NCBI RefSeq assembly: GCF_000702445.1
Contig: NZ_JNIF01000003.1
Span: 248,001 to 312,000 of the forward strand
Length of the DNA stretch: 64,000 bases
Reading direction: 5' to 3'
Origin: Bryobacter aggregatus MPL3
Lineage (GTDB): Bacteria; Acidobacteriota; Terriglobia; Bryobacterales; Bryobacteraceae
Below the pieces are notes generated by a model. That model was not told the origin of the DNA and made no database searches. It was given only the letters and a program-made list of their open reading frames with translations. This document shows, one piece after another, positions 37,327-42,379 of the stretch. The stretch's first letter is position 1, and every line of letters begins with the position of its first letter. The translations under genes were made by a program, and so were the position numbers.

Positions 37327-37395
37327 CCTATGCCGTTTAACGTTATCTGAGCAGTTGTTCATCTGAAATACTTCGGAGTTGAGGGGAAAGGAGGA

Positions 37396-37706
37396 CGTCG
37401 CCCAACGACTTCAGTGAGCGCTACCATCGGACGATCCAAGAAGCGCTCTACAGCATCAAGTTCCACCAGAAGCTATTTCAGTCTGTGGCAGAGCTCCAGC
37501 ATGAACTGGAGACTTCTGTTAGCTCTACAATCGCCAGCATGCCCCACCATGGATACCGGACTCAGGCCGAACGCTCAACCAGGCCTTCCTCAATGGAAAA
37601 CTCGCTCAGGCACAACCAATGGCAGCATGAATATGAATCAGCTAGATCTCAACCCATGCCCCCAACTATTCGTGTCCGCAGATCTTTGGTGAAATACATA
37701 TCAGCC
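37396..37706 (+). pseudogene. relic of an IS481-family element (transposase 3' part and right end)
   Basis: This segment aligns in order with the last third of the intact transposase at 38828-39862: FSERYHRTIQEALYSIKF, LFQSVAELQHELE, PHHGYRTQA and the final AQPMAA-like end. Several indels break the frame. The similarity continues past the stop into the right terminal repeat (compare GTGTCCGCAGATCTTTGG with GTGTCCGGAGATCTTCAG). The 5' two-thirds is missing. It is a diverged relative, not a copy of the intact element. IS5 copy A lies about 55 bp further on. Confidence 0.8.
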
Positions 37707-37760
37707 GCAGTATCGGATCTTTCTGCAGTTGTTGCTAGTCGTTCATATCATAATCGTCTA

Positions 37761-38598
37761 GAGCGTGTAGTTCACTTTTGAGAGGCAGAAGGGATGGCCT
37801 CCCCAGGCACGAGAAAAGGATATCCGGCCGATGTCAGCGATGAAAAATGGGCATTTGCAGCACCGTAGCTGACATTGATGGAAGAAGAGGCACCACAGTG
37901 TCGCTATCCGTTGCGAGAGGTGTTCAACGGATGTGTTGCCTGGTGAGGTGTGGGACGCCATGGCGATTGATTCCGCAGGATCTGCCACCTTGGGTGGTGG
38001 TGTACCAACAGACACAGCGGTGGATTCGGTCTTCGAGGCGATGGTGCATGATTTCCGGGAAGTATTACGGCGGCGAGAAGGACGAAAAGCCCAAGCCACT
38101 GCTGCGATCATGGAGAGCCGCACCTGAGAAGCAACGCCGGAGAGCGGAGCCCGCAGCGGCTATGACGGCGCGACGCGTCGAAAAGGCAGCAAGGTGGGCA
38201 TCGCGTCGATACGTTGGAGCATTTACTAGCGCTTCACGTCACCTCCGCCGAGGGACAAGACCGTGCTCAGGTCGGCATCCTTGCCAAACAGGTGCAGCAG
38301 GTGACCGGCGACAACGTCGAGTTGGCTTCGGTGGATCCAGGCTACACCGTGCTAAACGCCGCGGAAGCAGCCAACCAGCAAGGCATTCCATTAGAAGCCG
38401 TAAAACTATCGACGGCTAAAAAATGCTGCTGCCCAGGAGCTGGGTGGTCGAACGAACAGTTGGCTGGGCAACTCGCTACCGCCGACTCGTCCGAGGCTTC
38501 GAACGTCTGCTGGACAACGTCGCAGGCAGGCATGTATTTCCTTGCCTTGGCCTGCCTCCTCCTGAAACGCGCCTTCCTATCAAGTTCATTACAGGCTC
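37761..38598 (+). mobile_element. IS5-family (IS427-like) insertion sequence, copy A, inactivated
   Basis: The element is about 838 bp. Its ends are GAGCGTGTAGTTCACTT on the left and, reading inward, GAGCCTGTAATGAACTT on the right: imperfect terminal repeats. It lies in CTAG on both sides. This fits either a 2-bp TA duplication with the ends as given (IS427-group habit) or CTAG with ends one base further in. The encoded DDE transposase (DUF4096-type) is broken; see the pseudogene entry. It appears identical, base for base as far as I compared, to copy B at 40413-41250. Confidence 0.85.
37794..38580 (+). pseudogene. IS5-family transposase remnant in copy A
   Basis: The transposase reads in pieces: GYPADVSDEKWAFAAP and a stop TAG (37866), LTLMEEEAPQCRYPLREVFN and a TGA (37944) where the frame must change, then CGTPWRLIPQDLPPWVVVYQ, then FEAMVHDFREVLRRREGRKA and TGA (38125), GARSGYDGATRRKGSKV, then DTLEHLLALHVTSAEG through AEAANQQGIPLEAVK, and finally LLPRSWVVERTVGWATRYRR. 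IS427-type elements normally use one frameshift between two frames, but here about five frame changes and at least two nonsense codons are needed. The gene cannot make an active enzyme. Confidence 0.85.
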
Positions 38599-38693
38599 TA
38601 GAGCCAGCAAAGAAAATATCTTAATAGTATCATCGCCCCGACGCCATATTACATGAAATTAGCGGAAGATCAGCGGACACAATGATGGGAAAC

Positions 38694-38756
38694 GGCGCTT
38701 AGGGGAAGAGGCGAAGGGAGGGCGTAGCCCGACTGGAGCCGAAGCCCCTAAGCGCC
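38694..38756 (+). repeat. hairpin in the leader of the IS481-family element
   Basis: GGCGCTTAGGGG (38694-38705) and CCCCTAAGCGCC (38745-38756) are a perfect 12-bp inverted repeat. A smaller GGGC-GTA-GCCC hairpin lies between them. It precedes the transposase start by about 70 bases. Comparable leader hairpins in insertion sequences reduce transposase expression from readthrough transcripts; that role here is inference. Confidence 0.65.
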
Positions 38757-38827
38757 CCGAGCGGGTCCTTACGGTGATAGATTTGGAATCTTCCAAAACA
38801 CCAAAATCACCCCGAAAGGACACACTC

Positions 38828-39862
38828 ATGAGCGACAACCAGAAGCTTATCAAAGCGCGCATTGGACTGCTCCAACTCGCCCAGGAATTGGGCAACATCA
38901 AGGCCGCCTGCCAACGAGCCGGCATCAGCCGCAGCCACTTCTACGAGATCAAGGAAGCCTACGAGAAGCACGGAGCCGACGGGCTTGAGCCGAGGCAGCG
39001 CCGAACGCCTCGAATGCCGAATCAAACTGCGCCTGAGCTCGAAAAACAGATCCTTGAGATGACGGCACAGTATCCGACCTACAGTTACATCCGCATTGCC
39101 GACCAGCTTCGTTTGGTCGGCATCGGTGTCTCTGCCCCCGCCGTCCGAGGGGTCTGGGTACGGCACGGCATCACTCTCCGGCTCCAGCGCCTGCTCTGGC
39201 TGGACAAGAAGACCGCCACCGAAGGCGGCGTGCTGACGGAGCAAGCCAAGCGGCTCCTGCAGAAGCATCAGGGCCGAAACGTTGACCCGGAACAACATAT
39301 CGCTGCACCGCATTCTGGCTATCTGCTTTGCCAGGACACTTACTTTGTAGGCACGATCAAAGGCGTCGGCAAGGTCTACATGCAGACGGTCATTGACGCA
39401 CACTGCTCGCAAGCCTTCGCCAAGGTCTATCTCAGCAAGATGCCGATCACTGCGGCAGACACACTGAATGATCGAGTCATCCCCTTCTATGACGATGAGA
39501 AGGTGGGGATCGAGCGGTTGCTCACCGACAATGGCCGCGAGTACTGTGGACTCGAAGCTCGTCATCCCTTCGAGATCTATCTGGCGATTAACCAGATCCG
39601 CCACAAGAGAACGCAGATCGCTTCCCCTCAATCCAACGGCTTCTGTGAGCGCTTCCATCGCACGATCAAGGAGGAGTTTTACAGCATCAAGTTCCGGCAA
39701 AAGATCTATCAGTCTGTGGCTGAATTACAAGATGATCTGGACGCCTATCTGAGCTTCTACAATCGCCAGCGACCCCATCATGGATATCGGACTCAAGGCC
39801 GAACGCCATACCAGGCTTTCCTCGATGGGAAAATCGCCCAGGCGCAACCTATGGCAGCATGA
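38828..39862 (+). CDS. IS481-family transposase
   Basis: A 344-residue DDE transposase. ATG 38828 is preferred over the GTG at 38774 because AAAGGA precedes it and the family starts near here. An N-terminal helix-turn-helix region is visible (LGNIKAACQRAGISRSHFYE). The integrase core carries the likely catalytic triad Asp170 (LLCQDTYFVG), Asp234 (LLTDNGREY) and Glu274 (GFCERFHRT). The C-terminal PHHGYRTQGRTPYQAFLDGK is typical of the family. The gene is intact and long enough to be active. The relic at 37396-37706 is a diverged relative. Confidence 0.92.
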   Translation: MSDNQKLIKARIGLLQLAQELGNIKAACQRAGISRSHFYEIKEAYEKHGADGLEPRQRRTPRMPNQTAPELEKQILEMTAQYPTYSYIRIADQLRLVGIGVSAPAVRGVWVRHGITLRLQRLLWLDKKTATEGGVLTEQAKRLLQKHQGRNVDPEQHIAAPHSGYLLCQDTYFVGTIKGVGKVYMQTVIDAHCSQAFAKVYLSKMPITAADTLNDRVIPFYDDEKVGIERLLTDNGREYCGLEARHPFEIYLAINQIRHKRTQIASPQSNGFCERFHRTIKEEFYSIKFRQKIYQSVAELQDDLDAYLSFYNRQRPHHGYRTQGRTPYQAFLDGKIAQAQPMAA

Positions 39863-39927
39863 AGTAACCGAATCTCAACCGAGGCCCGTAAGCCCTCGTG
39901 TCCGGAGATCTTCAGCTAAATACACGT

Positions 39928-40412
39928 GAAATAGCATCAAGTCCTCAAGCCTCAACACGCAGGTTCTTTCAACAACCACCGAAAAGGAGTGATAACTTTC
40001 GAGAAGCGAAGACGATCGGAGTTTGAAAGCGATATCCGGCATATGTGAACCGTGAAGCAAGGCCATTCGTAGCGGGCTGCTGACGCTAATGGGCTACGAT
40101 CGGTAAGAGATTGCAATGGCCGCTGCATCGTCAAGACAGACGTACCCTTGGACTTCCGCATGGCTCACCACCCGTACTCTGCATTGAACCTCACGTGAGC
40201 TTATTGAGAAGCGGCTTCGGGAATACCCAGTTTTCTATTCGGCCGGGCGCTTGCGCTCACGAAGAAAGGTCAATTCAGCTAAGGTTCGCATTGCAGTCAA
40301 CACGTTGGGCATCTGTTGTCTTGGATATGATTCTGGCCGATAAGCAGGAGTAGGAGCAAGTGCCACAGGTCACCGGAGAGTGTGTGAAACTGGCCTGGGG
40401 GGACTGCATCTA
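39928..40412. other. 485 bp without a recognisable gene
   Basis: This lies between the IS481-family element and IS5 copy B. It has only short reading frames without family character. It includes GCTATTTCACGTG-like sequence just beyond the IS481 end, but no terminal repeat, tRNA or dyad that I recognise. It may be leftover host DNA or eroded mobile-element DNA. Confidence 0.5.
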
Positions 40413-41250
40413 GAGCCTGTAATGAACTTGATAGGAAGGCGCGTTTCAGGAGGAGGCAGGCCAAGGCAAGGAAATACATGCCTGCCTGCGACGTTGTCCA
40501 GCAGACGTTCGAAGCCTCGGACGAGTCGGCGGTAGCGAGTTGCCCAGCCAACTGTTCGTTCGACCACCCAGCTCCTGGGCAGCAGCATTTTTTAGCCGTC
40601 GATAGTTTTACGGCTTCTAATGGAATGCCTTGCTGGTTGGCTGCTTCCGCGGCGTTTAGCACGGTGTAGCCTGGATCCACCGAAGCCAACTCGACGTTGT
40701 CGCCGGTCACCTGCTGCACCTGTTTGGCAAGGATGCCGACCTGAGCACGGTCTTGTCCCTCGGCGGAGGTGACGTGAAGCGCTAGTAAATGCTCCAACGT
40801 ATCGACGCGATGCCCACCTTGCTGCCTTTTCGACGCGTCGCGCCGTCATAGCCGCTGCGGGCTCCGCTCTCCGGCGTTGCTTCTCAGGTGCGGCTCTCCA
40901 TGATCGCAGCAGTGGCTTGGGCTTTTCGTCCTTCTCGCCGCCGTAATACTTCCCGGAAATCATGCACCATCGCCTCGAAGACCGAATCCACCGCTGTGTC
41001 TGTTGGTACACCACCACCCAAGGTGGCAGATCCTGCGGAATCAATCGCCATGGCGTCCCACACCTCACCAGGCAACACATCCGTTGAACACCTCTCGCAA
41101 CGGATAGCGACACTGTGGTGCCTCTTCTTCCATCAATGTCAGCTACGGTGCTGCAAATGCCCATTTTTCATCGCTGACATCGGCCGGATATCCTTTTCTC
41201 GTGCCTGGGGAGGCCATCCCTTCTGCCTCTCAAAAGTGAACTACACGCTC
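40413..41250 (-). mobile_element. IS5-family (IS427-like) insertion sequence, copy B, inactivated, inverted
   Basis: This is the reverse complement of copy A over its full length. All frame breaks and stops agree and the same terminal sequences are present. It is also flanked by CTAG on both sides (40410-40413 and 41250-41253, one base shared with each end). With copy A it brackets the IS481-family element and about 0.5 kb of other DNA, giving a composite-like inverted arrangement of 3.5 kb. Confidence 0.85.
40431..41217 (-). pseudogene. IS5-family transposase remnant in copy B
   Basis: The same broken transposase as in copy A, with the same premature stops (the TAG corresponding to 37866 lies near 41145, and the TGA of 38125 near 40886) and the same frame changes. 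Peptides such as LPPWVVVYQQTQRWI and LEHLLALHVTSAEGQDR occur in separate frames. The shared damage means both copies derive from an already defective ancestor. Confidence 0.85.
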
Positions 41251-41367
41251 TAGACGATGTGAGAGATTGAGGACTCAGGAGGCTAGAGCTACAAATCCGA
41301 ACAGACCAGCGAGAACCGCCAGCATCGCTTTCCACTTTGAGTGCACCGCTGACTATTGTATGCACTA

Positions 41368-41416
41368 AGGAGATGAGGAGTGGTTCGCCCCTCCAGCGAA
41401 CCACTCCTCATCTCCT
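41368..41416 (-). terminator. 20-bp perfect hairpin after the PEP-CTERM gene
   Basis: Arm one ends GGAGATGAGGAGTGGTTCG (41369-41387) and arm two is its exact reverse complement (41397-41415), with one more pair at each edge. The loop is nine bases. It lies 7 bp beyond the stop of the minus-strand PEP-CTERM gene. No T-run follows the stem on that strand, so termination strength is uncertain. Confidence 0.6.
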
Positions 41417-41423
41417 CATCGCG

Positions 41424-42182
41424 CTATGCAATCGTCCGGAAGCGGGAACGCAATAGAGACACCAGCAGAACTCCAGAACTCAAAAGCACAGTAGTAGAGG
41501 GTTCAGGAACCGACGGAGTGCCGTAGAAACTTCCTTCGTCCAACGACGTGCCGTACTGGAAACGTATATTCGAGATGGTAGAAGTGGCCAGATCAAAACC
41601 AACCGGAAGAGCAAAGGTCACAAGCAGTGAATTATTGATCAGAGTGGCTCCATTGACCGTCGGATTGGAACCAGCCGCCAGCCCGTTGGCCAGCCCATAG
41701 TTGAACTGCTGCCCTCCTGGCGTGGAAAAGATCCCCAGACCCGCGGTGGACAATCCAAACTGCTGATTCACCTGATTGACACCCGACCCGCCGGGGTTCA
41801 ATCCGGCGGCAGTCGCTTTGAACTGCCATTCCCCATTCGACTTTACATCCACCGGCGGCGGACAGGTGGATCCCGTCAGACAGGAACCAGGCGCGGTCAC
41901 TGCACTCTGATAGATGAATGCTGGATTGAGGGTCGCCCCGCTGAAGAGACTCGGTTGGATATCAAAGAATACAGCGATCAGAATGTCAGAGGGAACTTTC
42001 ACTGGATTGTTATTTGTCAGGGTGACCAGCAGTTGCGAAGCAACTTGCTCAAATGTCAGGGAAGCGGACAATGGCAATCCTGAGGAAGAACCTGTCCCCG
42101 TACCAGTGAATGTAATGGTTGTTGCTTGGGAGAGAGAACTCGCAAGAAGGACGAGGCCGAAATGGGCGAGAAATTTCGACAT
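41424..42182 (-). CDS. PEP-CTERM sorting domain protein
   Basis: A 252-residue protein from ATG 42182. It has a signal peptide (about residues 1-20, ending SLSQA) and a C-terminal PEP-CTERM signal: VPEPST, then a hydrophobic helix (TVLLSSGVLLVSLL) and an arginine-rich end RSRFRTIA. Exosortase recognises this signal and processes the protein for surface display or release. The middle is low-complexity, beta-rich and Gly/Ser/Thr-rich with no enzyme motif. The PEP-CTERM-linked TPR lipoprotein and CPBP protease are at 20-23 kb, but the exosortase must be elsewhere. Confidence 0.85.
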   Translation of the reverse strand: MSKFLAHFGLVLLASSLSQATTITFTGTGTGSSSGLPLSASLTFEQVASQLLVTLTNNNPVKVPSDILIAVFFDIQPSLFSGATLNPAFIYQSAVTAPGSCLTGSTCPPPVDVKSNGEWQFKATAAGLNPGGSGVNQVNQQFGLSTAGLGIFSTPGGQQFNYGLANGLAAGSNPTVNGATLINNSLLVTFALPVGFDLATSTISNIRFQYGTSLDEGSFYGTPSVPEPSTTVLLSSGVLLVSLLRSRFRTIA

Positions 42183-42379
42183 GAATACACCTGCACGCAG
42201 AATTCCGGGAACCATTCCCGTTGAGATCACAGTGCCACGGAAGATGTGCTTTTCAGCAACTAATAGAAAGCCTTTGTACTAGAGCCAATCGGTTAGTACT
42301 TCTCGCCAGCACCGAAAGGGGCAACCTCCTGTCCAGCGGCTCTCTCCGCCACACTCTCGATACGATAAACTCTACGTTT
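42183..42379. promoter_or_regulatory. divergent region between PEP-CTERM and oxidoreductase genes
   Basis: This is 197 bp separating two genes that read outward. A small palindrome CGGGAACCATTCCCG (42206-42220) lies near the PEP-CTERM start and could be an operator. No -35/-10 pair is convincing. Confidence 0.35.

Follow-up and report, generated by a model that had tools for sequence, protein, structure and literature searches.

Two identical, inactivated IS5-family copies in inverted orientation around an IS481-family element in Bryobacter aggregatus MPL3, possibly kept alike by gene conversion

The window analyzed here, a 64,000-nucleotide stretch of the Bryobacter aggregatus MPL3 genome, contains at 37327–41360 a cluster of insertion sequences (ISs) and IS remnants, which includes two IS5-family copies in inverted orientation with an IS481-family element between them. 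The features are listed below, with positions counted from the first base of the window.

37402–37698, plus strand: older IS481-type 3′ remnant to the left of copy 1, 77% identical (repeat and genome match)
37753–37757: ATCGT, the outer flank of copy 1; found inverted outside copy 2 at 41254–41258 (base-by-base check)
37758–38601, plus strand: dead IS5-family element, copy 1, 836 bp (37762–38597) with CTAG on both sides (repeat search and alignment)
38654–39924, plus strand: IS481-family element of 1271 bp with an intact 344-residue transposase frame from 38828, lacking the 7-bp target duplication
38888–39067, plus strand: tract of mosaic sequence within the IS481 element (columns 235–414 of the element), holding each of its 13 departures from the majority sequence of the nine full copies
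40153–40404, plus strand: older, heavily decayed IS5-family remnant to the left of copy 2 (score 80, compared with 25–33 in six shuffles)
40410–41253, minus strand: dead IS5-family element, copy 2, 836 bp (40414–41249) flanked on each side by CTAG and of the same sequence as copy 1 (repeat search)
41270–41287: possible end of an IS630-type element to the right of copy 2 (weak 18-bp match, E 0.026)
41292–41360, minus strand: stub similar to the start of a gene for a 368-residue product, which in relatives lies ahead of an MBOAT gene (70 columns, 74% identical to L066)

The two IS5-family copies (hereafter, the arms) are 1.8 kb apart. A base-by-base check shows 850 identical bases (37753–38602 compared with 41258–40409), directly followed by two mismatches at bases 851 and 852; the "100%" identity given by the repeat search for arms of 855 nt (37753–38607 and 40404–41258) is a rounded figure. 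The inverted pair is real, an exact inverted match of 850 bp being far beyond chance. CTAG is found at all four arm edges (37758, 38598, 40410, and 41250), and the element between the CTAGs therefore measures 836 bp. An earlier sequence-only reading had described a pair of identical, dead copies in inverted orientation, each with its own CTAG flanks; all of this holds, with the proposed length of 838 bp corrected to 836 bp. Beyond the CTAGs, the arms also have in common five bases on the outside (ATCGT) and one A on the inside. A match of at least five bases on the left side is seen in 83 of 66,874 pairs of CTAG contexts in the genome's sequence, and 0.019% of pairs match in both respects (five outer bases and one inner base); the common ATCGT is thus unusual (about 0.1%), although it was noticed after the fact. 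CTAG itself is rare in the window, with 28 occurrences compared with about 236 expected from base composition, and 9 of the 28 fall inside 37327–41350.

To which family the arms belong is seen best at the protein level. In a Pfam scan, the arm's own open fragment matches a piece of an IS4/5 transposase at 28.4 bits, below the threshold of 34.3. Frame-aware alignments were made with three relatives that have open frames of 281, 284, and 290 amino acids (aa); in the alignment to the closest one, 159 of 252 aligned residues of copy 1 are identical (63%), and a 265-aa piece of this relative scores 207 bits, compared with the 110-bit cutoff of NCBIfam transpos_IS5_3 (NF033580). In transposase homology, and also in their terminal inverted repeats (matching ends) and short target duplication, the arms are IS5-family elements. 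Autonomous they are not: against each of the three relatives, copy 1 has five frame breaks and two in-frame stops (37866 and 38125), and Glu replaces the conserved Asp in the DSRT motif. Conserved residues were defined from 49 distinct relatives, retained from 63 proteins that passed an open-reading-frame filter and that came from 83 loci (80 from the alignment-based scan described below plus L088, L090, and L091). The covered columns in which at least 95% of these relatives agree number 87, and the dead copy departs at 13; tested one by one, the relatives themselves depart at a median of 1 conserved column (mostly 0–4, with outliers at 5, 6, 8, and 15). Identity of the arms means that both copies carry every one of these lesions, and their pairwise alignment reveals no differences of the kind that independent decay would leave. 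We also considered programmed frameshifting or stop read-through in place of inactivation, since read-through of one stop is proposed for an IS5-family element in a passage of PMC3196728; the damage described above, with its five frame breaks, its two in-frame stops, and 13 conserved residues changed, is more than a single event of this kind would account for, and we rejected this possibility.

CTAG is found on both sides of eight distinct relatives with recognizable ends and represents the 4-bp target duplication of the clade. Duplicates were merged by eye for this count (L004, L011, and L098 are one element, and L088 and L107 have the same flanks). In four other relatives (L109, L114, L119, and L169) the flanks are changed or different. 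By eye, the flanks of the relatives show no preference beyond CTAG.

A search of the genome (5.75 Mb in four contigs) returned two close copies of the dead element, namely the arms, and no third one. Ten weaker matches, with 64%–81% identity, lie at seven places by our own count. Four of these places were examined, and all are broken (three frame breaks in L004, seven and one stop in L003, three in L005, and two in L006); the other three places are matches of about 70–120 bases. The least damaged relative in the genome is L004/L098, which has a stop-free stretch of 248 aa, a CTAG duplication, and ends similar to those of the arms. Matches to DUF4096 number 19 in the genome, with the arms included, and other IS5-family elements with open frames are present. 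One DUF4096 match, L084, is the L005 place (i.e., a member of the clade); L084 apart, the open-frame IS5 elements have in common with the arms only blocks of 29%–43% aa identity over 29–40 residues and a 12-residue block at 67%, and the terminal sequences of eleven other IS5 elements differ from the arms' ends. Outside this genome, the dead element has no match in seven other genomes of the genus and weak partial matches in 3 of 236 other genomes of the family, in a scan that scored two candidates per genome and may miss weak matches. At the protein level, there are matches in 8 of 399 genomes drawn from the larger class, its own genome included. An alignment-based scan of the genome_contigs collection found 268 relatives, with best-segment identities of 40%–69% among the 80 kept, and protein scans of genome_contigs and viral_contigs confirmed no closer relatives of the dead element. 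Judging from these comparisons, a present-day helper that would move the dead element in trans is not evident; a lost helper is possible.

The IS481-family element in the middle is intact, as had been proposed: its 344-aa frame scores 255 bits, compared with an NCBIfam IS481 cutoff of 224, in keeping with a full-length transposase. It is one of nine full copies among 21 matches in the genome, and all nine have open frames from stop to stop (399 codons in eight copies and 377 in one). A perfect 7-bp target duplication surrounds six of the nine; in the window copy and in L018 and L020, the flanks match at three of seven positions. A target duplication that has since degenerated is unlikely for the window copy, given that four of its seven flank bases differ while the element itself follows the majority everywhere outside the mosaic tract. 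Because of this same lack of differences, we consider its insertion recent. The window copy departs from the majority of the nine full copies at 13 sites, which are confined to 180 of its 1271 bp; 11 of these sites are third codon positions (counted by hand). Ten of the 13 are private to the window copy; L014 and L017 have one end of the tract in common with it, and L021 has one site in common (the partial copy L022 was left out of this alignment). The tract has the appearance of sequence received by conversion from a working, diverged relative, although no donor was found among the IS481 loci compared. This resemblance makes it probable that exchange between IS copies occurs in this genome.

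The neighborhood of the arms is itself IS debris. In addition to the remnants listed above, 40025–40073 is a 49-nt match to copy 2 at 71% identity. In two relatives of the genus, G004 (L065) and G005 (L066), genes for AhpC/TSA, MBOAT, and a 368-aa product lie between gltD and an oxidoreductase gene; in G001 (L067) and G002 (L069), the MBOAT and 368-aa genes adjoin the oxidoreductase gene as well. None of the three genes is seen in G003 (L068, 11 kb), and the sequence compared for G006 and G007 comprised just short flanks, of which the one from G006 (L041) has a 44-residue match to AhpC at its end. Elsewhere in the B. aggregatus genome, the single MBOAT match is 38% identical. The IS cluster (37327–41360) thus occupies the place of the AhpC/TSA-MBOAT-368-aa operon, which the genome appears to have lost; all that is left of it in the window is the stub at 41292–41360. 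Further to the right, a perfect 21-bp hairpin with a 7-nt loop (41368–41416), probably a terminator, lies downstream of a minus-strand gene (41424–42230); the C terminus of the product of this gene resembles a PEP-CTERM signal (no Pfam hit). At four other places in the genome (L071, L072, L074, and L081), a nearly identical IS630-family element abuts IS5-family copies at the terminal CTAG, as if one IS takes the other's end as its target. IS remnants were also followed across the arms to tell whether the middle segment has been flipped: pieces of the left flank have no convincing second match in eight genus genomes (four other hits, E 0.29 to 0.80), a piece of the right flank is found at its own place only, with up to three mismatches allowed, and the possible IS630-type end amounts to no more than its 18-bp match.

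How old is the identity of the arms? As a rough clock, the change of 13 out of 87 conserved residues since constraint was lost corresponds to about 56–64 expected substitutions per 836 bp. There are zero private changes between the arms, and on this rough clock they last had a common sequence within about 2%–3% of the dead period (upper 95% bound). This figure dates the last copying between the arms, be it duplication or gene conversion, and not the insertions. The sequence-only reading had taken perfect identity to mean that the event was recent; this is right for the last copying between the arms but does not extend to the insertions, because gene conversion resets identity.

The explanation we prefer, to which we would give a probability of roughly one-half and, if anything, slightly less, is that two insertions at CTAG sites have been kept identical by gene conversion. 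On this view, a single IS5-family element inserted as two copies into an older IS cluster, at two CTAG sites and in opposite orientations; once the element was dead, the inverted arms, only 1.8 kb apart, could trade sequence through homologous recombination, by gene conversion in which the middle may or may not be flipped, such that both came to carry the same damage and neither kept private changes. The IS481 element would be a separate, recent arrival. Since the identity ends within five and one bases of the CTAG edges, we infer that both arms began as separate CTAG insertions, and since the element is dead and no helper is evident, recombination between nearby inverted arms is the simplest way for them to stay identical. 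Favorable to conversion are the frame breaks, stops, and conserved-residue changes common to the arms with none private, the lack of a working helper of the clade at the four places examined, and the mosaic look of the IS481 copies. Against it, the arms themselves show no conversion tract and their identity runs to the last base, where gene conversion is considered less efficient. The five extra outer bases in common are likewise left unexplained by conversion, and a single recent copying event of any kind suits the zero differences between the arms equally well.

One such event would be transposition. The sequence-only reading had the broken element moved in trans by an active relative, or else recently duplicated; in an updated form of the first idea, the transposase that recently carried a dead copy to a new CTAG would have come from an active member of the same clade, one now lost or decayed. 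The CTAG on both sides of each copy, which is the duplication characteristic of the clade, and the zero private changes speak for this, and L004/L098 could be a helper that died lately. We nevertheless find the idea doubtful: there are just two close copies in the genome and none in the other genomes of the genus, the examined places are all broken (L004 itself by three frame breaks), and the open-frame IS5 elements have other ends and only short blocks in common with the arms. The assembly searched for helpers may lack plasmids or short contigs. Less probable still, in our estimate, is that the second arm is an inverted segmental duplication and dates from a rearrangement, by template switching or by break repair, that may also be the reason why the IS481 element has no target duplication. 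Such an origin would account for the common bases beyond the CTAGs, rare as such matches are among CTAG contexts, and passages of PMC11708052 tie duplication-free IS5 and IS481 movements to rearrangements. The same passages offer an experimental parallel from Pseudomonas fluorescens SBW25, in which, as here, an IS481-family element with no target duplication lies between two repeat copies. However, the SBW25 duplication is direct, about 60 kb long, and has the IS at its junction, whereas here 850 bp are inverted and spacers of 51 and 484 bp separate the IS481 element from the blocks common to the arms; moreover, random breakpoints would seldom fall within five and one bases of element edges, and the flank match was a post hoc observation. 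That the duplication-free IS481 insertion and the 850-bp inverted duplication arose together in one rearrangement is, in our judgment, very unlikely; if true, it would explain both the flank bases in common and the missing IS481 duplication, and would be a natural, inverted counterpart of the laboratory IS-in-a-break event.

Part of the arm identity might also be a product of assembly or polishing, which can homogenize repeats. We consider this similarly improbable, as the contig that contains the window exceeds 4.1 Mb, the arms have different flanks on both sides, and the open frames in the nine full IS481 copies argue against a general indel error. A composite transposon of 3.5 kb, as initially suggested, that works and was moved here as a unit would have inverted IS arms and CTAG at its outer edges, as observed; but neither arm supplies a working transposase, CTAG is found at the inner edges too (the four edges fit two separate insertions), and the 479 bp that follow the IS481 element on its right are matched nowhere else in the genome. 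Joined together, the outer flanks would form a 14-bp palindrome, which by eye is not seen at the clade's other targets. A composite transposon therefore lacks support, and we would grant it hardly any probability.

Overall, the case is an ordinary kind of bacterial genome wreckage, a dead IS pair of a known kind, in which the arms probably stay alike through copying from one to the other and not through fresh transposition. The wider implication is that transposition is poorly dated by the perfect identity of dead IS copies; if a matching active transposase is not in evidence, such identity is more likely to mark the time of the latest recombination. A further prediction from the arms is that the 1.8-kb segment between them is invertible.

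Compared with IS5-family elements of the NF033580 type, the arms are alike in their CTAG duplication and AG..TGTA ends and differ in having a transposase broken in seven places and Glu for the Asp of the DSRT motif. PMC3004938 describes conversion that accompanies recombination between the ends of ISs. For Wolbachia wBm, a passage of PMC3196728 (citing Cordaux 2009) describes gene conversion as keeping non-functional, highly similar IS copies that carry stops and frame shifts, and Cordaux 2009 is likewise cited on gene conversion of dead IS copies in part of PMC4072520; for its own organism, A. asiaticus, the relevant part of PMC3196728 largely rules out gene conversion, and hence there is no general rule. 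The arms resemble the wBm copies in being highly similar, with stops and frame shifts, and in having inactivating changes in common and none private; they differ in being only two, inverted, close together, and in a 5.75-Mb genome of another lineage, where conversion is the favored rather than the demonstrated agent of their likeness.
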